The position numbers and the translations under genes were made by a program. Shown piece by piece: positions 9,131 through 63,877 of a stretch of 64,000 nt of DNA. Positions within the stretch are counted from its first letter, which is position 1. Each line of letters begins with the position of its first letter. The notes beneath the pieces were generated by a model. It searched no databases and was not told where the DNA came from. It was given only the letters and a program-made list of their open reading frames with translations. Source of the stretch: Geothrix edaphica. Its GTDB lineage: Bacteria; Acidobacteriota; Holophagae; Holophagales; Holophagaceae. The stretch lies in contig NZ_BSDC01000001.1 of the NCBI RefSeq assembly GCF_030268045.1, positions 1,550,001-1,614,000 on the forward strand, given 5' to 3'.

Positions 9131-9625
9131 TCAGGACTGCTTGGCCAGCAGCCGGGCGCGCGTGTACGGGATCAGCCCGCCGGCATCCATGATGCCCTTG
9201 CGCGCGGCGGGCAGCTTGACCTGCTCGTAGGCCTTGCCCGTGGTCTTGTTGAGCACCTGGTCCGCGGTGATCTCCAGGTCATCACCCTCGCCGGCCTCGA
9301 GGCCGGGACAGATCACGACCTGGAGTCCCAGGTTGATGCTGTTCTGGAGGAAGATGCGGGAGATGCTCTTGGCCACCACGGCCACGTCGTGGCCCTTCAG
9401 GGTGGAGCAGGCCTGCTCGCGGCTGGAGCCGCAGCCGAAGTTCTCACCGCCCACGATGATGGAGCCGGACGCGAAGGCCCTGGCCTTGAGCTGGGCGTTG
9501 AACTCGGTCCGGTCGAAGAAGGCGAACTGGGGGGTTTCAGTGGGCAGCACCGTGGCCATGAAGCGGCCGGGATAGATGTCATCGGTGCTGATGTCGTTGC
9601 CGAGCTTGATGATGACCTTGGACAT
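9131..9625 (-). CDS. leuD: LeuD-like dehydratase small subunit (3-isopropylmalate dehydratase family)
   Basis: Swivelling small subunit of an aconitase-superfamily dehydratase, 164 residues. This short form is shared by archaeal-type LeuD, homoaconitase and 2,3-dimethylmalate dehydratase small subunits; E. coli LeuD is about 200. Motifs: GNDISTDDIYPGRF at the N terminus and GGENFGCGSSREQA for substrate-anion binding. It starts 3 nt after the stop of the large subunit. The leucine label is by family only. The operon also holds a CoA transferase and an HMG-CoA-lyase-like enzyme, so the substrate may be citramalate/citraconate or another methylmalate. Confidence 0.85.
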   Translation of the reverse strand: MSKVIIKLGNDISTDDIYPGRFMATVLPTETPQFAFFDRTEFNAQLKARAFASGSIIVGGENFGCGSSREQACSTLKGHDVAVVAKSISRIFLQNSINLGLQVVICPGLEAGEGDDLEITADQVLNKTTGKAYEQVKLPAARKGIMDAGGLIPYTRARLLAKQS

Positions 9626-9628
9626 GGT

Positions 9629-10915
9629 TCAGCCCTTTCTCGGATCGGTGATGACGCCGGTGATCGCCGAGGCCGCGGCCACCACGGGGCTGCAGAGGTA
9701 GACTTCGCCCGTGGGATTGCCCATGCGGCCCTTGAAGTTGCGGTTGGTGGTGCTGAGGGCCTTCTCGTGGTCGCCCAGGGCGCCTTCGTGGACGCCCAGG
9801 CAGGGCCCGCAGCCGGAGTTCATCACCACGGCGCCGGCCGCCATGAGGTCGTGGACATAGCCCTTGTCCAGGGCCTGCGCGAAGATCTTGCTCGAGGCCG
9901 GGAACACCAGCATGCGCGTGCCCTGGGCCACCTTCTTGCCCCGCAGGATGTCGGCGGCGGCGGCCAGGTCGTCCAGCCGCCCGTTGGTGCAGCTGCCGAT
10001 GACGATCTGCTGGATCCGCGTGCCCACCACGTCGCCGATGGGCTTCACGTTGTCCACCATGTGAGGGCAGGCGATCTGAGGCACCAGCCTGGTCACGTCG
10101 ATCTCCACCGTCTGGACGTAGCTGGCATCCAGGTCGGGCGTGACGCAGGGGATCGGATCGGTGACTCCTGCCTCCTCCCGCAGGTAGCGCAGGGTCTCCG
10201 CGTCCCCGGGCACGATGCCCGAGGTGGCGCCGGCCTCCACGCTCATGTTGCAGATGGCGATGCGGCCGCTGGTGCTCATCTTCCGGATGGTCTCGCCGTG
10301 GAACTCCAGCACCTTGTAGTTGGCGCCCTGGGCCGTGAGCTTCCCGATGAGGTGGAGGATGAGGTCCTTGGGGCCAACGAAGGGCGGGAACTCGCCGTGG
10401 ACCACCACCTTGATGGTGGCGGGCACCTCGATGTTGACGGCGATGCCCAGGCTCCACACCGAGGCCATCTCCGTGGCGCCGATGCCGAAGCTGAAGGCGC
10501 CCATGGCCCCATGGCTGGTGGTGTGGGAGTCGGTGCCCACCACCACATAGCCCGGCCGGACGTAGCCGTACTCCGGCAGGATCTGGTGGCAGATGCCGCC
10601 CACATCGCCGCGGATGTCGTGGAACTTGGTGATGCCGTGGTCGGCCACGAAGCCGCGGATCTTCTTCTGGTTGGTGGCCGTCTTGGGCGATTCCGCCGGC
10701 ACGCGGTGATCGAAGATGATGGCGATCCGGGAGGGATCCCAGACCTTGGCGCTCAGCCCGGTGCCTTCGTACACCTCGTGGAACTGGTTGATCACCAGCG
10801 CAGCGTTCTCGTGGGACATGGCGAGGTCCACCCGCGGCTCGACCACATCCCCGACCTTCACGGACGGCAGGCCCGCCGCGCGGGCCAGAATCTTCTCGAC
10901 GACCGTCATGCCCAT
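9629..10915 (-). CDS. leuC: LeuC-like dehydratase large subunit (3-isopropylmalate dehydratase family)
   Basis: Fe-S large subunit of the dehydratase whose small subunit follows immediately. 428 residues, the short LeuC/homoaconitase/DmdA class. Cluster-binding cysteines are in GSCTNGR and GCGPCLG; GTDSHTTSHGAMG is the substrate-region signature. The ATG at 10915 is chosen over a GTG at 10936 because GAGGAGG lies just upstream of it and the GTG falls inside the CoA-transferase frame. It begins 10 nt after that gene's stop. Dehydration/hydration chemistry is secure; the physiological substrate is not. Confidence 0.87.
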   Translation of the reverse strand: MGMTVVEKILARAAGLPSVKVGDVVEPRVDLAMSHENAALVINQFHEVYEGTGLSAKVWDPSRIAIIFDHRVPAESPKTATNQKKIRGFVADHGITKFHDIRGDVGGICHQILPEYGYVRPGYVVVGTDSHTTSHGAMGAFSFGIGATEMASVWSLGIAVNIEVPATIKVVVHGEFPPFVGPKDLILHLIGKLTAQGANYKVLEFHGETIRKMSTSGRIAICNMSVEAGATSGIVPGDAETLRYLREEAGVTDPIPCVTPDLDASYVQTVEIDVTRLVPQIACPHMVDNVKPIGDVVGTRIQQIVIGSCTNGRLDDLAAAADILRGKKVAQGTRMLVFPASSKIFAQALDKGYVHDLMAAGAVVMNSGCGPCLGVHEGALGDHEKALSTTNRNFKGRMGNPTGEVYLCSPVVAAASAITGVITDPRKG

Positions 10916-10925
10916 GGGAACCTCC

Positions 10926-12125
10926 TCAGATGACACCTTTGGTTTTCAACTCAGCCAGATCGGATGTACCAAGCCCGAGATGCCCGTAGACCTCGGCATT
11001 GTGCTCGCCCAGCGCAGGCGGTGGCGCATCCACAGAACCGGGGGTCTTCTCGAACAGCGCTGTCAGGCCGAAGACCTCGATCTCACCGACACCTTCGGCC
11101 TGCACCTTCTGGAGCACGCCGCGATGTGCGATCTGCGGCTGCCGCAAGGCCTCCTCCAGCCCGAGAATCTCGCCACTCGGAACATCCTTCGCATTCAGTT
11201 CCATGACCCAGAAGCCGGTAGGTTTCTGGATCAGCCGGGCCTCCAGCAGCGGCGTCAAGGCCTTGCGGTTCTTCTTGCGGGTGTCCCGCTCCTGGAACCG
11301 GGGGTCGGCCTTCAGTTCCGGCACCTCCAGCACCTCGCAGACAGCCTCCCACTGCTCCTGCTTGTTGGCCGCGATGTTGATGTGGCCGTCCTGCGTGCGG
11401 AAAGTGCCGCTGGGGGCCGCCGTGAAGTTGTCATTGCCCATGAGCACGGGCTGCTCCCCGCCGATGAGCAGGTTCGCCGCCACCCAGCCCATGAGGGGCA
11501 TGATGCTGTCCAGCAGGGCGATGTCGATGGCCTGCCCTTCTCCCGTCCGTTCGCGGTGGAAGAGGGCCGCCATCACGGCGAAGGCCGCGTTCAGGCCGCC
11601 CACGGTGTCGCAGACGGGAAAGCCCGTGCGCAGGGGGCTCAGGCGCTCATCGCCATTCACGGCCATCTCGCCCGACAGGCCCTGGATGATCTGATCGTAG
11701 GCCGGTTTGAGGGCGTCCGGCCCCGTCTGGCCGAAGCCGGAGATGGCGCAGTAGATGAGCCGCGGGTTGAGCTCCGCCAGGCTCTTGTAGCCGATGCCCA
11801 GACGGTCCATGACGCCGGGGCGGAAGTTCTCCACCACCACGTCCGCGTCCTTCACCAGCTTCCGGAACAGTTCCTTGCCTTCGGCGGACTTGGTGTTCAG
11901 GGTGATCGACTTCTTGTTGCAGTTCTGGGCCAGAAAGCTGGTGCCCATGAGCTTCTTGTTCAGCTCGGGCACGATGCCCAGCTTGCGGGCCAAGTCCCCA
12001 TCCTTGGGGTTCTCCACCTTGATGACCTCGGCCCCGAGGAGGGCCAGGTGCAAGGTGGTGAAGGGTCCGGAGAGGACGTTGGTGAGGTCCAGGACCTTGA
12101 TGCCGTCGAGGATCTTCCTGCTCAT
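10926..12125 (-). CDS. CaiB/BaiF family (class III) CoA transferase
   Basis: Moves CoA between carboxylic acids through an aspartyl-CoA anhydride. 399 residues, the family norm. N-terminal GIKVLDLTNVLSGPF and AEVIKVENP are typical; the catalytic aspartate is expected in RTGFPVCDTVGG. Family members act on oxalate, carnitine, mesaconate, citramalate, itaconate and others. The ATG at 12125 overlaps the lyase stop by 4 nt (ATGA), so the two are translationally coupled. This suggests that the transferase and lyase handle consecutive intermediates, for example free versus CoA-bound citramalate. Confidence 0.9.
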   Translation of the reverse strand: MSRKILDGIKVLDLTNVLSGPFTTLHLALLGAEVIKVENPKDGDLARKLGIVPELNKKLMGTSFLAQNCNKKSITLNTKSAEGKELFRKLVKDADVVVENFRPGVMDRLGIGYKSLAELNPRLIYCAISGFGQTGPDALKPAYDQIIQGLSGEMAVNGDERLSPLRTGFPVCDTVGGLNAAFAVMAALFHRERTGEGQAIDIALLDSIMPLMGWVAANLLIGGEQPVLMGNDNFTAAPSGTFRTQDGHINIAANKQEQWEAVCEVLEVPELKADPRFQERDTRKKNRKALTPLLEARLIQKPTGFWVMELNAKDVPSGEILGLEEALRQPQIAHRGVLQKVQAEGVGEIEVFGLTALFEKTPGSVDAPPPALGEHNAEVYGHLGLGTSDLAELKTKGVI

Positions 12126-13030
12126 GCCGTCACCTTCGCAGTGATGGGGCCGGTCTTGTGGACGCAACCCGGCAGATCCCGGCCCAGGTGAGTGGATACA
12201 TCCTTCGCCACGCCGATGAGGGCGGCGAGGTCGATGTCCGTGCGCAGGCCCATGCGCTGGAGGCCGTGGACCAGGTCTTCAGTGGCCACGTTGCCCGCCG
12301 CCACCTTGGTGAAGGGGCAGCCGCCCAGACCGCCGAAGCTGGTCTCGATGGCCTTGGCGCCGGCGTCCATGGCGGCGTAGACGCTGGCCATGCCCAGACC
12401 GTAGGTGTTGTGGATGTGGGCCGTGATCTCTGCGGCCGGGTGGAGCTCCAGCACCTTCTGCACATAGCGCCGGACCTGGTCAGGGTGCGAGTGCCCGGCC
12501 GTGTCCGCGAGGCTGATGGAGGTGAGCCCAGCTTCCAGGTAGGCCGCCACGATGCCCATGACGCGGTCCTCGGGGATGGATCCCTCGAAGCCGCAGCCGA
12601 AGGCGCTCTGGACGCTGACCTGCACCTTGCGGCCCGCCTGCTTCGCCGCCAGCGCCGTGGCGATGATGCGCCGCTGGGCGTCCTCGGTACCCATCCCCGT
12701 GTTCTTGCGGCTGTGGGTCTCGGAGGCGGAGACGCCCAGGCAGATGAGCGGCACGCCCACCTCCAGGGCCCGCTCCAGCCCCTTCTCGTTGAGCACCAGG
12801 CCGGACAGCAGGGCGTGGTGGTCCTCCTTCACGAGGATGCGGAAGAGGTCGTCCGTGTCCGCCATCTGGGGCACCTTGTCGCCCCGCACGAAGGAGCCCA
12901 CCTGGACGATGTCCACCCCTGAATCCGCCGCGCGACGGATCCAGTCGAGCTTCACATCCGTGGGCACCACCGTGGCTTCGACCTGGAGGCCATCGCGGGG
13001 GCCGACTTCGTGGATGAGGATGCGATCCAT
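12122..13030 (-). CDS. HMG-CoA lyase-like enzyme (HMGL / citramalyl-CoA lyase candidate)
   Basis: Divalent-metal TIM-barrel lyase, 302 residues, of the DRE-TIM superfamily. HMG-CoA-lyase features: GPRDGLQ (catalytic R12, metal-linked D13), metal ligands H205 and H207 in AHIHNTYG, and the catalytic-cysteine loop GGLGGCP (C238) followed by AAGNVATED. Differences from canonical HMGL include SFVRGDKVPQM and ADTAG in place of GDTIG. The family cleaves 3-hydroxy-3-methylglutaryl-CoA, but relatives cleave or form citramalyl-CoA and similar branched 3-hydroxyacyl-CoAs. Starts 7 nt after the dehydrogenase stop. No other leucine-catabolism gene is present. Confidence 0.85.
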   Translation of the reverse strand: MDRILIHEVGPRDGLQVEATVVPTDVKLDWIRRAADSGVDIVQVGSFVRGDKVPQMADTDDLFRILVKEDHHALLSGLVLNEKGLERALEVGVPLICLGVSASETHSRKNTGMGTEDAQRRIIATALAAKQAGRKVQVSVQSAFGCGFEGSIPEDRVMGIVAAYLEAGLTSISLADTAGHSHPDQVRRYVQKVLELHPAAEITAHIHNTYGLGMASVYAAMDAGAKAIETSFGGLGGCPFTKVAAGNVATEDLVHGLQRMGLRTDIDLAALIGVAKDVSTHLGRDLPGCVHKTGPITAKVTA

Positions 13031-13037
13031 GGCTTCC

Positions 13038-14156
13038 TCAGAGCTTGCGCGCGATCGCCTCGCCCATGTCGAGGGTCGAGGCGCTGCCGCCCATGTCGTA
13101 GGTGCGCACCTGGCCTTCGGCGATGACAGCGGCCACGGCCTTCTCGAGGCGCGAGCCCTTCTCCGTCTCGCCCAGCCAGTCGAGCATCATCTTCGCGGCG
13201 AGGATGGTGGCGATGGGGTTCACCTTGTACTGGCCGGCGTACTTGGGCGCACTGCCATGGCTGGGCTCGAACACCGCCAGCTTCTCGCCGATGTTGCCGG
13301 AGCAGCCGAAGCCCAGGCCGCCCACCATCTGGGCCGCCAGGTCGCTCACGATGTCGCCGAACAGGTTCGTCGCCACCATCACGCCGTAGTTCTTCGGGTT
13401 CTTCAGCATCCACATGGTGATGGCATCCACATTGGCGTCATCCATCGCGATGCCCGGGTACTCCTTCGCGATGCGCTTGCCCGTCTCCAGGAACATGCCT
13501 TCCGTGGCGCGCACCACGTTGGCCTTGTGGATGACCGTGACCTTGGGGTAGCCGAAGGTCTTGGCGTATTCGAAGGCGGCACGGATGATGCGGTCGCAGC
13601 CCTTCTGTGTGTTCACCTTGCAGGTGATGGCGAACTGGTCTCCGGGGATGTCGGCAAAGTGGGCGAAGGGCTTGCTCAGCTTCTTCAGGGTCGCCTTCAG
13701 CTCGTCCGGAACGGGGCTGAATTCCACGCCGGCATAGAGATCCTCGGTGTTCTCGCGGAAGATCACCATGTCGATGTCTTCCTTGTAGTTCAGGGGATTG
13801 CCGAGGTAGGCCTTGCACGGCCGCAGGCAGGTGTAGAGGTCGAACATCTGCCGCATGCGGACGATGGGGCTGCGGTAGATGAGGCCCTTGCCCTTGAGCT
13901 CGGGCACAAGCTCCGCCTCGGCGTCCTTCACGGGCTTGGAGGTGATGGCACCGAACATGGCGGCGTGGCTGTTCTTCAGCAGGTCGATGGTGCGCTGGGG
14001 AAAGGACTCGCCCTCCTTGCACCAGAACTCCCAGCCGATGTCGCCGTGGGTGTAGGTGGCGTCGAACTTCAGCGCATCGAGGCAGATCCTGGCCGCCTCC
14101 ATGACCTCGACGCCCACGCCGTCGCCGGGCAACCACGCGATGTTGAACTGGCTCAT
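13038..14156 (-). CDS. Isocitrate/isopropylmalate-family beta-decarboxylating dehydrogenase
   Basis: First gene of the five-gene operon, 372 residues. NAD(P)-dependent oxidative decarboxylation of a 2-hydroxy acid bearing a 3-carboxylate (isocitrate, 3-isopropylmalate, 3-methylmalate, homoisocitrate or tartrate). The substrate loop reads IFRENTEDLYAG, the ICDH/tartrate type rather than the RELTGG type of LeuB. The catalytic lysine is in IHKANVV, and the metal-binding aspartates are in NLFGDIVSDL. The C-terminal EPSHGSAPKYAG is the nucleotide-binding loop. The ATG at 14156 has AAGGAG. Together with the LeuCD-like pair it could convert a methylmalate to 2-oxobutyrate. Confidence 0.88.
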   Translation of the reverse strand: MSQFNIAWLPGDGVGVEVMEAARICLDALKFDATYTHGDIGWEFWCKEGESFPQRTIDLLKNSHAAMFGAITSKPVKDAEAELVPELKGKGLIYRSPIVRMRQMFDLYTCLRPCKAYLGNPLNYKEDIDMVIFRENTEDLYAGVEFSPVPDELKATLKKLSKPFAHFADIPGDQFAITCKVNTQKGCDRIIRAAFEYAKTFGYPKVTVIHKANVVRATEGMFLETGKRIAKEYPGIAMDDANVDAITMWMLKNPKNYGVMVATNLFGDIVSDLAAQMVGGLGFGCSGNIGEKLAVFEPSHGSAPKYAGQYKVNPIATILAAKMMLDWLGETEKGSRLEKAVAAVIAEGQVRTYDMGGSASTLDMGEAIARKL

Positions 14157-14318
14157 GATCAGGCTCCTTCGGGCAGGGGTCTGCGGTGCGGCGCGACACG
14201 CGCCGGAACCGCCCAATCATGACCTCCCCGTTAAGTTTGAGCTCCGATCGCCATCACAAATCCGGCCGAAAAGGCGGGTTTCGACTCTCCGGACCTACAG
14301 ATCGTCAAAAATGACCGG

Positions 14319-17117
14319 TCACTTGCAGGCCAGCCAGCTGTCGCCGGTGCGCACTTCCGCTGCCAGCTTCACGCCGAGAGGACCCAGGTCATCCGCGCCT
14401 TCCATGGCCTCCTTCAGCAGGGCCGAGGCACGCTCCACTTCTTCCGGCGGCGCCTCCATGAGCAGCTCGTCGTGGACCTGGAGCAGCAGCCGCGCCTGGA
14501 GCCCCGAGGCCTGGAGGCTGCGGTGCAGGCGCACCATGGCCCGGCGCATGAGGTCGGCGGCCGTGCCCTGGACGATGGTGTTCACGGCCTCGCGCAGGCC
14601 CTGGGCCTGGAACTGCTTGTTGGGGCTCTCCAGCTCGGGGATGCGCCGGATGCGACCCCAGTGGGTGCGCACCAGGCCCTCCGCCAGGGCCTTCTCCTTG
14701 GCGCCCTCGATCCAGGCGGCCACCTTGGGCATGCGCTCGAAGTAGCGCTCGATGAAGGCCTTGGCTTCCTTCTGGCTGACGCCGATGTTGGCCGCGAGGG
14801 CGAAGGCCCCCTGGCCGTAGAGCAGACCGAAGTTGACAGCCTTGGACGCGCTGCGCTGCTCCGAGGTGACCTGGTCCATGGGCACATTGAAGACTTCCGA
14901 CGCCGTGCGGCGGTGGATGTCCTCGCCGGCCGCGAAGGCGCCCAGCAGCACCGGATCCTCGGCCAGGGCCGCCACCACCCGCAGCTCGATCTGGCTGTAG
15001 TCGGCGTCCAGCAACACCCAACCGGGCTCGGGCACAAAGGCGCCGCGGATGGCGCGACCCTCCTCCGTTCGGATGGGGATGTTCTGGAGGTTGGGATCAC
15101 TGGAGGCCAGCCGTCCCGACGCCACGGCCGCCTGATGCAGCCGCGTGTGCACCCGGCCTGTGACGGGGTTCACCATCTGGGGCAGCGCCTCCACATAGGT
15201 GCCCAGCAGCTTCACCATCTGGCGGTGGCGCAGCAGCTCCTGCGCGATCTCGGCCCCCTGTTTTTCCGCCAGTTCCTGGAGCACATCCTCGTCCGTGCTG
15301 GGCGCCTTGGTCTTGCCGGTGTACTTCACGGGCTTGAAGCCCAGCTTGCCGAAGAGGATGCCGCCCAGCTGGGTGGGGCTGTTGAGGTTGAAGGGCTCGC
15401 CGGCCAGCTCGAGGACGCGGGCCTCCGCGCGCTTGCGCTCGCCCTGCATGCGTACGGCGAGTTGGGAAAGGACATTCAAGTCCAGGCGGACGCCGTGGCC
15501 CTCCAGGGCGGCGAGCACATCCACGAGGGGCAGGTCCACCTCTTCGTAGAGCTGCTTCAGACGATCATCCGTGAGCTTTGCCCGCAGCTTGTCGCAGAGC
15601 TGCAGAGCCAGATCCGCATCCTCGGCGGCGTACTGCACCGCGTGTTCGAACTCGGCCTCATCGAAGCGCTTCTGGGCCTTGCCCTTCCCCACCACCTCCT
15701 CGAAGGCGATGGGCTTCACGTCCAGCAGGCGCACGGACAGGTCATCCAGGTTGTGGCGGACCCCGCTCTCCAGCAGGAAGCTCAGCACCATGCTGTCATC
15801 GGCCAGCCCTGCCACGGGCATCCCATGGCGGGCCAGCACCTGGAGGTCGTACTTGAGGTTCTGGCCGCACTTGCCCACGGCCGGATCGGCGAACAGCGGC
15901 GCCAGGACCCGCCGGGCCTCTGCGAACGGGATATTGCGCGGATCCAGGTGGGACGCCAACTCTGCGAAGAAGGTGCCTGCCTCCCCCCGGAGGTCCAGCA
16001 GCGAGTCCGGCAGACCCGAGTCCGGCAGGAGCCCAGGCAGGGAGCCTTCCGTATCGGCCGTGGCCGGCTTCAGGTGCGCCAGCGGGACATAGAGGCCCTC
16101 ATTGGTCGCCCAGGCCAGGCTGAGGCCCACAATGTGGCCGCGGGTGGGGTCGATGCTCGTGGTCTCCGTATCGAGGCCGAACCGCCCAGCGGCGCGGCAG
16201 GCGGCCACGGCGGCTACCAGGTCCGCCACGGTGGCCGCGGCCCGGTATTTCCGGGCGCTGCCCGCCTCCTGGGCGCTCTGGGTGAACTCCTTGGTGAGGG
16301 TCTGGAAGCCCAGGGCCTTGAAGGTCTCCCGGGCCCTGGCCTCGTCCACGCCCGGATAGACGAGATCCTTGGGGTGCAGAGGCAAGTCCAGGTCCGTCAC
16401 CACCGTGACCAGGCGCTTGGTGAGGTCCAGCCACTCCCCGGCGGCCTCGAGCCCCTCCCGCTGCTTGGGCTTCAGGTCGGCCTTGGCGGCGATGACGCCG
16501 TCCAGACTGCCGTGCTTCTCCAGCAGCAGGGCCGCGCCCTTCTCGCCGATGCCGGGGACGCCCTTCACATTGTCGGAGGCATCGCCCACCAGGCTGAGGA
16601 AGTCCACCACCTGCTCAGGCCACACACCCATGCGGCTCTTCACGCCCTCGCGGTCGTGCCAGATCTCGCCGTCCTTGGTGTTCAGCACCTGGATCTTCAG
16701 GTCGTCGTCCACCAGCTGCAGCAGGTCCTTGTCCGGGCTGACGATGACCGCCGGCAGGCCGTGGGCCGCCGATTCCCGGGCCAGGGTGCCCATGACGTCG
16801 TCCGCCTCGTAGCCCGACAGCTCCACGATGGGGATGTTCAGGGCCTCCACCAGCTGCCGGATCATGGGGATCTGCGGGCGCAGATCCTCGGGCATTTCGG
16901 CGCGGTTGGCCTTGTACTCGGGATAGAGCTCGTGCCGGAAGGTGGGCCCCGGCATGTCGAACACGCAGGCGATGTGCGTGGGCTGGTGCTTCTCCAGCAG
17001 CTGGAGCACCAGCCGCGTGAAGGTGTACGCCGCGCCGTTCTTCAGCCGGGGGTTGGCGAAGTAGGCGCGAAAAATGAAAGCGAAGGTGTCGATCAGGTAG
17101 AGGCGGTCTTCGGACAT
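14319..17117 (-). CDS. polA: DNA polymerase I
   Basis: 932 residues with all three PolA domains. The N-terminal 5'-3' exonuclease (about 1-290) contains DKDLLQLVDD and GDASDNVKGVPGIGEKGA. The 3'-5' exonuclease (about 300-520) keeps its DxE motif (FGLDTETTSID) and the later YAAEDADLALQL, so proofreading appears intact. The polymerase domain contains motif A (DADYSQIELRV), motif B (SKAVNFGLLYGQG) and motif C (LQVHDELL). It functions in Okazaki-fragment maturation and repair. It ends about 160 nt before the start of the dehydrogenase operon. Confidence 0.98.
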   Translation of the reverse strand: MSEDRLYLIDTFAFIFRAYFANPRLKNGAAYTFTRLVLQLLEKHQPTHIACVFDMPGPTFRHELYPEYKANRAEMPEDLRPQIPMIRQLVEALNIPIVELSGYEADDVMGTLARESAAHGLPAVIVSPDKDLLQLVDDDLKIQVLNTKDGEIWHDREGVKSRMGVWPEQVVDFLSLVGDASDNVKGVPGIGEKGAALLLEKHGSLDGVIAAKADLKPKQREGLEAAGEWLDLTKRLVTVVTDLDLPLHPKDLVYPGVDEARARETFKALGFQTLTKEFTQSAQEAGSARKYRAAATVADLVAAVAACRAAGRFGLDTETTSIDPTRGHIVGLSLAWATNEGLYVPLAHLKPATADTEGSLPGLLPDSGLPDSLLDLRGEAGTFFAELASHLDPRNIPFAEARRVLAPLFADPAVGKCGQNLKYDLQVLARHGMPVAGLADDSMVLSFLLESGVRHNLDDLSVRLLDVKPIAFEEVVGKGKAQKRFDEAEFEHAVQYAAEDADLALQLCDKLRAKLTDDRLKQLYEEVDLPLVDVLAALEGHGVRLDLNVLSQLAVRMQGERKRAEARVLELAGEPFNLNSPTQLGGILFGKLGFKPVKYTGKTKAPSTDEDVLQELAEKQGAEIAQELLRHRQMVKLLGTYVEALPQMVNPVTGRVHTRLHQAAVASGRLASSDPNLQNIPIRTEEGRAIRGAFVPEPGWVLLDADYSQIELRVVAALAEDPVLLGAFAAGEDIHRRTASEVFNVPMDQVTSEQRSASKAVNFGLLYGQGAFALAANIGVSQKEAKAFIERYFERMPKVAAWIEGAKEKALAEGLVRTHWGRIRRIPELESPNKQFQAQGLREAVNTIVQGTAADLMRRAMVRLHRSLQASGLQARLLLQVHDELLMEAPPEEVERASALLKEAMEGADDLGPLGVKLAAEVRTGDSWLACK

Positions 17118-62265: not shown

Positions 62266-62778
62266 TCAGGGCAGGGCCTTTAGGAGCGCCAGCACCTGCT
62301 GGTCGTGATCCTTGGTACGGACATCCCGGATGATCTTCCGGATGATGCCTTGCCGGTCGATGAGGACGGTGGTCCGCTTCGCGAAGCCCAGCAGGGGCAT
62401 CTTCACCCCGTAGGCCTCGATGATGCGCTTGTCCGGATCCGCCAGGATGCTGAAGGGCAGGTGGAACTTCTCGGCGAAGGCCTTGTGGCTCTGGGTGGTG
62501 TCCGCGCTCACGCCGAGGATCACCGCATCCGCGGCCTGGATCGCCGCGAACCCATCCCTGAGGCTGCAGGCCTCGGCGGTGCATCCCGGCGTATCGTCCT
62601 TGGGATAGAAATAGAGCACCACCCTCGATTTCCCCTGAAAATCCGCCAGGCGGATCAGGGCGCCGTGCTGGTCCCGGGCCTCGAAGGCCGGGGCCTTCGC
62701 GCCCTCCGCGATCTCCCCTGCGGAAGCCAGCCCCATGATCGACAGAATCCCCATCGCCACCCTCCAGTTCCGGCCCAT
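62266..62778 (-). CDS. bcp: Exported Bcp/PrxQ-type peroxiredoxin
   Basis: 170 residues. The core PrxQ domain has peroxidatic C66 and resolving C71 (TPGCTAEACSL), with LYFYPKDDTPG ahead of it. Residues 1-21 are a signal-peptide-like segment (MGRNWRVAMGILSIMGLASA), so this copy probably works in the periplasm; most Bcp proteins are cytoplasmic. The ATG at 62778 follows GGGAGG. Divergent from the dehydrogenase at 62849, with 70 nt between them. Confidence 0.9.
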   Translation of the reverse strand: MGRNWRVAMGILSIMGLASAGEIAEGAKAPAFEARDQHGALIRLADFQGKSRVVLYFYPKDDTPGCTAEACSLRDGFAAIQAADAVILGVSADTTQSHKAFAEKFHLPFSILADPDKRIIEAYGVKMPLLGFAKRTTVLIDRQGIIRKIIRDVRTKDHDQQVLALLKALP

Positions 62779-62848
62779 GGTCGCCTCCCGAGGGGTGGGA
62801 GTGTGGCACCATCGGCTGGAACTGGAAACAGAAACGGAGCAGGACATC

Positions 62849-63877
62849 TTGGACCACATCACTCGCATCGCCCTCATCCCCGGGGACGGGGCCGGCCCCG
62901 AGGTCATGGCGGAAGCCGAGCCACTGCTGGAATGGGCCCGGGCCCGGGGGCGCCGCCTGGAGGCCGAGCGCCTGCCCTATGGGGCGGACCACTTCCTCGC
63001 CACGGGCGAGACCCTGCCCGAGGCGGCCTACGCGGACCTCCGGGACCGGTTCGACGCCATCCTCTTCGGTGCCGTGGGCGACCCCCGGGTGCCGGACGGG
63101 CGCCATGCCGAGGAGATCCTCCTGCGCCTGCGCCAGGGCCTGGAACTGACCGTGAACTTCCGGCCCTGCCGGCCCCTCCCGGGAACCCGCATGGCGGGCC
63201 TCCACCTCGAGGTCTTCCGCGAGAACACCGAGGGGGCCTACTGCCTCCAAGGCTCCTCCGAGCCCGGTCGAGCCGTGGACCTGGCTGTGCATACCGAAGG
63301 AGCGGTGCGCCGCCTGCTGGAAGCGGCCTTCCTCCGGGCGCGGGCCCGGGGCTGCACGCTGACCCTGGCCCACAAGGCCAATGTCCTGAAGCACGGCCAC
63401 GGGCTCTGGCTCCGGGTGTTCCAGGATCTCCGCGCCGCGCACCCGGAGGTGCCTGCCCGCGGCATGCATGCGGATGCCCTCCTCTGCGCCCTGGTGCAGG
63501 ATCCGGCTCCCTTCGGCGTCATCGCCGCCGACAACTATCTGGGCGACCTCATCAGCGACCTCACGGCGGCCTTCGCCGGCGGCATGGGCACCGCGCCCTC
63601 CCTGAGCTGGGCGCCGCACCGCCCCTTCCGCTGCGCGGTCCTGGCGGAACCCGTGCATGGCTCCGCGCCGGACATCGCCGGGCAGGGCCTGGCCAACCCC
63701 GTGGGCATGATCCTCAGCACCGCCCTGCTCTTCCGGCATCTGGGCTGGGAGACCGAAGCCCGGGCGGTGGAAGAGGCCGTGGCGGCCACCCTGCGTGACG
63801 GAGCCAGAACCAGCGACCTGGGCGGCAACCTGAGCACCGGGGAGATGGGAACGGCCATCCGCGAACAGTTGCCCTGA
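62849..63877 (+). CDS. Isocitrate/isopropylmalate-family dehydrogenase, second copy
   Basis: 342 residues. HITRIALIPGDGAGPEVMAEA opens the fold; the substrate loop is VFRENTEGAYC (ICDH/tartrate type rather than LeuB's RELTGG), the catalytic lysine is in LAHKANVLKHG, metal ligands are in NYLGDLISDL, and HGSAPDIAGQGLANPVGMI is the NAD loop. The most likely start is TTG at 62849 with GGAG upstream; an extended frame upstream lacks one. A paralogue of the enzyme at 13038-14156. The substrate is uncertain, and leucine biosynthesis is only one option. Confidence 0.85.
   Translation: MDHITRIALIPGDGAGPEVMAEAEPLLEWARARGRRLEAERLPYGADHFLATGETLPEAAYADLRDRFDAILFGAVGDPRVPDGRHAEEILLRLRQGLELTVNFRPCRPLPGTRMAGLHLEVFRENTEGAYCLQGSSEPGRAVDLAVHTEGAVRRLLEAAFLRARARGCTLTLAHKANVLKHGHGLWLRVFQDLRAAHPEVPARGMHADALLCALVQDPAPFGVIAADNYLGDLISDLTAAFAGGMGTAPSLSWAPHRPFRCAVLAEPVHGSAPDIAGQGLANPVGMILSTALLFRHLGWETEARAVEEAVAATLRDGARTSDLGGNLSTGEMGTAIREQLP

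Follow-up and report, generated by a model that had tools for sequence, protein, structure and literature searches.

A five-gene set of Geothrix edaphica that probably breaks down a six-carbon acid from lysine by CO2 addition and splitting

The window analysed here is a 64-kb stretch (64,000 nucleotides) of Geothrix edaphica DNA, in which five ORFs occupy positions 9131-14156 of the minus strand, next to an intergenic region that separates them from polA:

14157-14318, minus strand: polA-DH intergenic region, likely operon leader on the basis of an alignment of 17 loci
13038-14156, minus strand: DH, 372 aa, Pfam Iso_dh, proposed homoisocitrate dehydrogenase acting as 2-oxoadipate carboxylase
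12122-13030, minus strand: LY, 302 aa, Pfam HMGL-like, proposed homocitryl-CoA lyase
10926-12125, minus strand: CT, 399 aa, Pfam CoA_transf_3, class III (CaiB/SUGCT-like), proposed acyl-CoA:homocitrate CoA transferase
9629-10915, minus strand: LC, 428 aa, Pfam Aconitase, LeuC/HacA-like, proposed homoaconitase large subunit
9131-9625, minus strand: LD, 164 aa, Pfam Aconitase_C, LeuD/HacB-like small subunit

The tight packing of the genes in one direction, as described in the first-pass annotation, was borne out, and its spacings of 7, -4, 10 and 3 nt between successive genes from DH to LD match the sequence exactly, with CT and LY overlapping by 4 nt. The module is present in at least seven phyla and the order DH-LY-CT-LC-LD is repeated across them, with 52-98 % identity depending on the gene and genome; the grouping is thus not a product of chance. 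G. fermentans DSM 14018 is another carrier of the operon (locus L045). Sequence blocks of the leader are retained among Geothrix (17 aligned loci). The leader gave no match in an Rfam search, which likewise showed no lysine riboswitch upstream of DH, and a promoter scan, in itself uninformative, identified no sigma-70-like site in it.

The dehydrogenase falls with the isocitrate/homoisocitrate group rather than with the isopropylmalate dehydrogenases. Its profile scores ~283 bits against solved IDH/HICDH structures, as compared to at most 215 bits for IPMDH and 186 bits for the tartrate enzyme TDH, and its matches in the PDB and by fold are likewise to IDH/HICDH and not IPMDH. The best NCBIfam match is AksF2_Meth (329.8 bits; cut-off 540), and the scores against the homoisocitrate dehydrogenase equivalogs AksF/AksF2 (329.8 and 289.2 bits) lie below the membership cut-offs of 500-540, as do those against every other equivalog below theirs. 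An isocitrate dehydrogenase-type substrate loop had been suggested for this protein, of which one part stood: the loop YRSPIVRMRQ carries the Ser of the isocitrate dehydrogenases but lacks their Asn. The SPIV element is common to the fungal homoisocitrate dehydrogenase 3ty3, and the SPIV[R/K] recognition motif is conserved in DH.

LC and LD are of the archaeal/DmdAB-type short form (NF001614, 539.6 bits, cut-off 385), in agreement with the short LeuC/LeuD forms noted previously. LC belongs to the homoaconitase family TIGR01343 (hacA_fam; 499.1 bits, cut-off 385.7) and also passes TIGR02086 (isopropylmalate/homoaconitate), and family membership therefore leaves its substrate undecided. The nearest PDB match of LC/LD is the isopropylmalate/citramalate isomerase of M. 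jannaschii, marginally ahead of homoaconitase (385 versus 367 bits for LC), while the LD substrate loop YPGRFMATVLPTETP is near-invariant. Neither this loop nor the PDB matches were decisive and substrate assignment on their basis was dropped; taken alone, LC/LD is equally close to homoaconitase and citramalate isomerase.

LY is a member of the HMG-CoA lyase family, scoring above the cut-off of NF004283 (265.4 bits; cut-off 246) and retaining the catalytic R-D, HxH and G-loop Cys, with R12, D13, H205, H207 and C238 invariant among 18 module sequences. Its AlphaFold model (pLDDT 93) has 6nds as the top fold match. The AlphaFold models bear out the expected folds. No leucine-degradation genes occur beside LY in Geothrix, and an LY ortholog was found in another cluster in Elusimicrobia. 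CT is a class III CoA transferase, as indicated by its CoA_transf_3 domain (408.7 bits) and the catalytic Asp motif PAYDQIIQG, which is conserved among 52 sequences. The closest NCBIfam family is succinate-glutarate CoA-transferase (NF052585; 301.8 bits, below the equivalog cut-off of 750), and human SUGCT (9br6) is among the top PDB matches.

The first-pass annotation viewed the operon as a complete lyase, CoA transferase, isomerase and dehydrogenase set for a non-leucine substrate, operating either in a CimA-independent supply of isoleucine precursor through citramalyl-CoA or in degradation. This interpretation is partly supported. The complete set and the degradative option agree with the present results, as does the non-leucine substrate, given that true leuA, leuB, leuC and leuD genes are located elsewhere (C1:884-891 kb) and the operon is not the only leuBCD set of the genome. 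The route through citramalyl-CoA and 2-oxobutyrate is not supported: the genome encodes a full biosynthetic IlvA (TIGR01124, 812.8 bits, cut-off 411.3), and no CimA could be recognised among its four HMGL-family proteins. With a separate leuABCD set and IlvA in the genome, the operon is explained by neither leucine nor isoleucine supply.

The genomic context of the module and its relatives points to lysine catabolism. Two unrelated genomes carry the module joined to a gene for L-piperideine-6-carboxylate (P6C) dehydrogenase: at locus L098 a single gene run comprises P6C dehydrogenase (NF050084, 776.6 bits, cut-off 730), a class III aminotransferase and DH-LY-CT-LC-LD, and at locus L091 the P6C dehydrogenase gene (753.9 bits) is directly upstream of DH. 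In three Verrucomicrobiae genomes (G297, G092 and G182), an orthologous DH (57-59 % identity) adjoins a homoaconitase-sized gene and an ATP-citrate-lyase-like pair, consisting of ATP-grasp and SucD/citryl-CoA-lyase proteins. The homoaconitase of G297, the only one of the three scanned, exceeds the TIGR00139 cut-off (745.7 bits; cut-off 529.9), and in G297 and G092 lysine 6-transaminase and P6C dehydrogenase genes lie ~20 kb or less from DH. Among 236 Verrucomicrobiae, P6C dehydrogenase occurs in 23 and DH in five, all within those 23 (Fisher 6e-6, rising to 6e-5 when the ascertained genome is left out and to ~0.007 when the three related genomes are counted once). The module DHs and the homoaconitase-linked DHs form one clade (100/99), with the L098 DH falling among the latter, in a tree whose few references and long outgroup branches place HICDH versus IDH affinity beyond its resolution.

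Both markers of lysine catabolism via 2-aminoadipate are encoded in the Geothrix genome as well, at sites unlinked to the operon: lysine 6-transaminase scores 627 bits (cut-off 520.8) and P6C dehydrogenase 745 bits (cut-off 730). One or both are above cut-off in 13/24 other module-bearing genomes, two more have a fragmented transaminase, and neither is above cut-off in 9/24. Both are also common in Acidobacteriota that do not carry the module.

As relatives of the operon are linked to lysine-degrading genes, the chain-elongation steps of the alpha-aminoadipate (AAA) pathway are proposed to run backwards in lysine breakdown, a reading to which we assign, on sequence grounds, a probability of about two in three. 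The gene content, its conservation, the linkages and the family assignments are observed; we infer the substrates, CoA donor and direction of the following steps. Lysine 6-transaminase and P6C dehydrogenase, encoded elsewhere, would convert lysine to 2-aminoadipate and then 2-oxoadipate, which DH would reductively carboxylate to homoisocitrate. LC/LD would isomerise this via homoaconitate to homocitrate, CT would transfer CoA to homocitrate from an acyl-CoA (succinyl-CoA or acetyl-CoA), and LY would cleave homocitryl-CoA to acetyl-CoA and 2-oxoglutarate. On this scheme C1 and C2 of lysine would end up in acetyl-CoA and C3-C6 would form C2-C5 of 2-oxoglutarate, whose C1 would derive from the added CO2. 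Weighing against the proposal are the unlinked position of the lysine genes in Geothrix and their frequency in Acidobacteriota lacking the module, the nine module genomes with neither marker above cut-off, the scores of DH below all equivalog cut-offs, the marginally nearer isopropylmalate/citramalate match of LC and LD, the LY ortholog in Elusimicrobia and a possible second exit for 2-oxoadipate. It is rather likely that this represents an undescribed, O2-independent form of lysine catabolism by 2-oxoadipate carboxylation and homocitryl-CoA cleavage, occurring in two versions, one with a CoA transferase and HMGL lyase (Geothrix) and one with an ATP-homocitrate-lyase-like pair and homoaconitase (Verrucomicrobiae). 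In the open PMC papers that the search covered, 'homocitryl-CoA' does not appear and no lysine degradation or catabolism via homocitrate or homoisocitrate was found.

The proposed route differs strongly from the isoleucine pathway first suggested, in which 2-oxobutyrate and CO2 would be interconverted with pyruvate and acetyl-CoA via 3-methylmalate, citramalate and citramalyl-CoA, either to supply isoleucine or to degrade propionate/2-oxobutyrate. The PDB match of LC/LD to the M. jannaschii enzyme agrees with such substrates, as does 6nds, the solved lyase nearest to LY, which was crystallised with 3-methylmalate, and a VorB/KorA-type 2-oxoacid oxidoreductase encoded near the module in several phyla could turn propionyl-CoA into 2-oxobutyrate. 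However, DH groups by score with tricarboxylate rather than LeuB-type dehydrogenases, IlvA is present with CimA not recognised, and the curated-level linkages of the operon or DH, to P6C dehydrogenase, lysine transaminase and homoaconitase, would be left unexplained, making the citramalyl-CoA pathway a weaker and doubtful rival to the reversed AAA steps.

A citrate cleavage resembling that of the reductive TCA cycle appears more improbable still. Here CT and LY would replace ATP-citrate lyase in a sequence from 2-oxoglutarate and CO2 through isocitrate, citrate and citryl-CoA to oxaloacetate and acetyl-CoA. In its favour, DH is equally near to isocitrate dehydrogenases, the Verrucomicrobiae relative has an ATP-citrate-lyase-like pair, and some phyla have KorAB-type genes close to the module. 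Against it, DH is without the Asn of isocitrate dehydrogenases, the aconitase-family gene of the Verrucomicrobiae is a homoaconitase above cut-off, and ordinary aconitases are already encoded in the Geothrix genome, AcnB-type and mitochondrial-type genes among them. The least probable option is the synthetic direction, with LY condensing acetyl-CoA and 2-oxoglutarate towards 2-oxoadipate/2-aminoadipate. CoA-lyases are reversible in principle and, as described in PMC3556520 and PMC3356886, fungal and Thermus lysine synthesis makes 2-oxoadipate with the same isomerase and dehydrogenase classes. Against this, the linked enzymes, P6C dehydrogenase and lysine 6-transaminase, work in the direction of lysine to aminoadipate, and condensation would have no driving force because the CoA transferase would conserve the thioester.

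Homocitrate, homoaconitate, homoisocitrate and 2-oxoadipate, as proposed here for the reversed AAA steps, are also the intermediates of lysine biosynthesis in fungi and Thermus, which draws on the same isomerase and dehydrogenase superfamilies, while the operon is without homocitrate synthase and has a CoA transferase and HMGL lyase in its place. The citramalate, itaconate and citramalyl-CoA pathways also employ a CaiB-type transferase and CoA-lyase to yield acetyl-CoA and a 2-oxoacid, but share no linkage found here with the operon; the itaconate routes are not known to include an isomerase or a decarboxylating dehydrogenase. In the ATP-citrate lyase branch of the reductive TCA cycle, a carboxylating dehydrogenase and an aconitase-type isomerase likewise precede a CoA-dependent step that splits the product into acetyl-CoA and a 2-oxoacid, whereas the Geothrix substrates would be one carbon longer and cleaved by CoA transferase and HMGL-type lyase. 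If true, the proposal would provide a C6-C7 acid parallel of the reversed oxidative TCA cycle, and functions for conserved genes of at least seven phyla that would otherwise be annotated as leucine, citrate or HMG-CoA enzymes.

Lysine breakdown past 2-oxoadipate is known via O2-dependent and glutaryl-CoA routes, to which a CO2-consuming reversal of biosynthesis would, if true, add a third that anaerobes, iron-reducing Geothrix among them, could use. In D-lysine and plant lysine catabolism, the iron(II) oxygenase HglS (DUF1338) decarboxylates 2-oxoadipate to 2-hydroxyglutarate (PMC7286885). This likewise brings lysine-derived 2-oxoadipate to the 2-oxoglutarate level, with C1 lost as CO2, while the Geothrix set would work without O2, incorporate CO2 and also give acetyl-CoA. 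The route via 2-oxoadipate dehydrogenase and glutaryl-CoA dehydrogenase also leads from 2-oxoadipate to acetyl-CoA, with C1 and C6 lost as CO2, and requires a glutaryl-CoA dehydrogenase, which is absent from five module genomes that contain P6C dehydrogenase, a point in favour of the proposed route (PDB matches confirmed the identity of the query sequence). The contrast between module and glutaryl-CoA dehydrogenase appears only outside Geothrix. A complementary distribution within the genus was rejected, as all tested Geothrix encode a protein with 51-53 % identity to this enzyme. The gene in the present genome (51 % identity) suggests that 2-oxoadipate may have a second exit.

The five-gene operon of the first-pass annotation, with spacings of 7, -4, 10 and 3 nt, was confirmed on the minus strand, ORF and domain calls agreeing for each gene:

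13038-14156, minus strand, dehydrogenase (DH)
12122-13030, minus strand, HMG-CoA-lyase-family protein (LY)
10926-12125, minus strand, class III CoA transferase (CT)
9629-10915, minus strand, LeuC-like protein (LC)
9131-9625, minus strand, LeuD-like protein (LD)

Upstream of DH, polA ends at 14319 on the same strand, and the 162 nt gap (window 14157-14318) has no Rfam match. Alignment among Geothrix (Acidobacteriota, Holophagaceae), the genus of the window genome, distinguished conserved blocks in this spacer, including TTTGACA..TTTGTCGGG and TTAACGGGGAGGTCATGATTGG, possibly a regulator site or leader.

The operon is real and conserved, and is not a leucine operon. Scanning one genome per species yielded 80 loci, with named Geothrix species as top matches; LY is full-length or nearly so, at 76-90% identity, in most of the 36 other Geothrix genomes. 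Loci with LY of at least 52% identity mostly also carry DH, CT, LC and LD, usually ordered DH-LY-CT-LC-LD (LC-LD-DH-LY-CT at L083), and occur in Acidobacteriota, Elusimicrobiota, Ignavibacteriota/Chlorobiota, Bacteroidota, Eiseniibacteriota, Verrucomicrobiota and Gemmatimonadota (mostly MAGs). Identity to the window proteins in the more distant phyla is ~70-76% for DH, CT and LC and ~55-65% for LY. Catalytic residues are retained across the module sequences. The LD loop YPGRFMATVLPTETP is kept too, a pattern that points to one common substrate. Some loci are variants. In Zixibacteria (L088:5148-6125) a PEP-mutase/isocitrate-lyase-family gene sits between CT and LC, with no DH in the 10.5 kb examined, and a different lyase may split the isomerised acid there. 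An aspartase/fumarase-like gene replaces DH upstream of LY-CT-LC-LD in genome G057 (L218:10336-11766). In Elusimicrobia (L093, L094, L097), an LY ortholog (52-56%) occurs where DH, CT, LC and LD are missing; its cluster includes genes for a carboxylase, an acyl-CoA dehydrogenase, PrpB-like and PrpD-like proteins and a second HMGL protein.

The best fit for the operon, with a probability of about two in three, is lysine breakdown through a homocitrate route run in reverse. DH would convert 2-oxoadipate, CO2 and NAD(P)H to homoisocitrate, LC/LD would convert this to homocitrate, CT would form homocitryl-CoA using an acyl-CoA, and LY would release acetyl-CoA and 2-oxoglutarate; we infer the direction, CoA donor and substrates. 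Several genomes encode a 2-oxoacid:ferredoxin oxidoreductase near the module which, if it converts 2-oxoglutarate to succinyl-CoA, would regenerate CO2, and the succinyl-CoA so formed could act as CoA donor. Reversed TCA cycles offer known examples of reductive carboxylation by the enzyme class of DH. The open-access papers searched yielded no account of homocitryl-CoA cleavage; known onward routes of 2-oxoadipate are the oxygenase HglS and the glutaryl-CoA route (PMC7286885).

Piperideine-6-carboxylate (P6C) dehydrogenase, which together with lysine 6-transaminase yields 2-aminoadipate, is linked to the module or to DH in several genomes. At locus L098, a TrmB-type regulator, P6C dehydrogenase (NF050084, 776.6 bits; cut-off 730), class III aminotransferase and DH-LY-CT-LC-LD form a head-to-tail run, and P6C dehydrogenase (753.9 bits) immediately precedes DH at L091. 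Among 236 Verrucomicrobiae, P6C dehydrogenase occurs in 23, including all five genomes in which the DH search found DH. In three of these five (G092, G182 and G297; DH identity 57-59%), DH is accompanied by a 670-aa aconitase-family protein, classified in G297 as homoaconitase (TIGR00139, 745.7 bits; cut-off 529.9), and by an ATP-grasp protein and a SucD/citryl-CoA-lyase fusion (L178, L179:1321-5372, L180), a candidate ATP-dependent homocitrate lyase. In G297, one 19-kb stretch carries DH together with lysine 6-transaminase (571 bits; cut-off 520.8) and P6C dehydrogenase (785 bits; cut-off 730); the two lysine genes lie ~20 kb away in G092 and on a different contig in G182. On the DH tree, the DHs of the three branch within the clade of module DHs (100/99), with the L098 DH as their sister (100/99). 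The three genomes are closely related, thus representing fewer independent events than the P value for DH/P6C dehydrogenase co-occurrence suggests.

The window genome encodes both lysine enzymes over cut-off (transaminase at C1:1694813, 627 bits; P6C dehydrogenase at C2:115121, 745 bits), neither adjoining the operon. One or both exceed the cut-off in 13/24 other module-bearing genomes, with a fragmented transaminase in two more. The transaminase adjoins a semialdehyde-type dehydrogenase in three Ignavibacteriota/Chlorobiota genomes and, by search coordinates, in a fourth (G069). The Elusimicrobia module genomes contain neither enzyme; there, a class III aminotransferase gene immediately follows LD. 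P6C dehydrogenase occurs without glutaryl-CoA dehydrogenase in five module genomes; all P6C-dehydrogenase-positive module-free genomes tested have the latter. Geothrix has both dehydrogenases, and the module is therefore not the sole possible exit there.

The DH profile scores best against isocitrate and homoisocitrate dehydrogenases (~283 bits), above isopropylmalate (<=215 bits) and tartrate (186 bits) dehydrogenases, and fold matches agree with this ranking. The recognition helix of DH, SPIV[R/K][M/L]RQ, shares SPIV with the Schizosaccharomyces pombe homoisocitrate dehydrogenase and lacks the Asn of isocitrate dehydrogenases; the basic residue would suit an additional carboxylate. The best-scoring family for CT is succinate-glutarate CoA-transferase (under cut-off), and its nearest relatives of solved structure include human SUGCT. 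The first-pass annotation had proposed that the operon might make or break 2-oxobutyrate through citramalyl-CoA, a possible but weaker reading for which the strongest sequence evidence is that LC and LD both score slightly higher with isopropylmalate/citramalate isomerase than with homoaconitase. Isoleucine synthesis need not depend on the operon, since IlvA is present (TIGR01124, 812.8 bits; cut-off 411.3). No CimA is recognisable among the four HMGL-family proteins of the window genome (LeuA, a 399-aa LeuA-like protein with no specific family match, a second HMG-CoA lyase and LY). True leuC, leuD, leuA and leuB are grouped at C1:884-891 kb, and leucine synthesis thus has no need of the operon.

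Further related genes occur in the window genome. The second HMG-CoA lyase (320 aa; absent from the matches in many other Geothrix) and a CaiB-type transferase (397 aa) are encoded 8 nt apart at C2:612.4-614.6 kb (L003, L183), with 40% identity to LY and 31% to CT, respectively. An odd 650-aa aconitase-family protein, below every curated cut-off, has a LeuC-like second half (C1:1677793-1679022, L011; also L214:9894-11990). Distant from the operon, an isocitrate/isopropylmalate-dehydrogenase-family gene at window 62639-63877 (plus strand, L008) encodes a product under all curated cut-offs and on a long branch.
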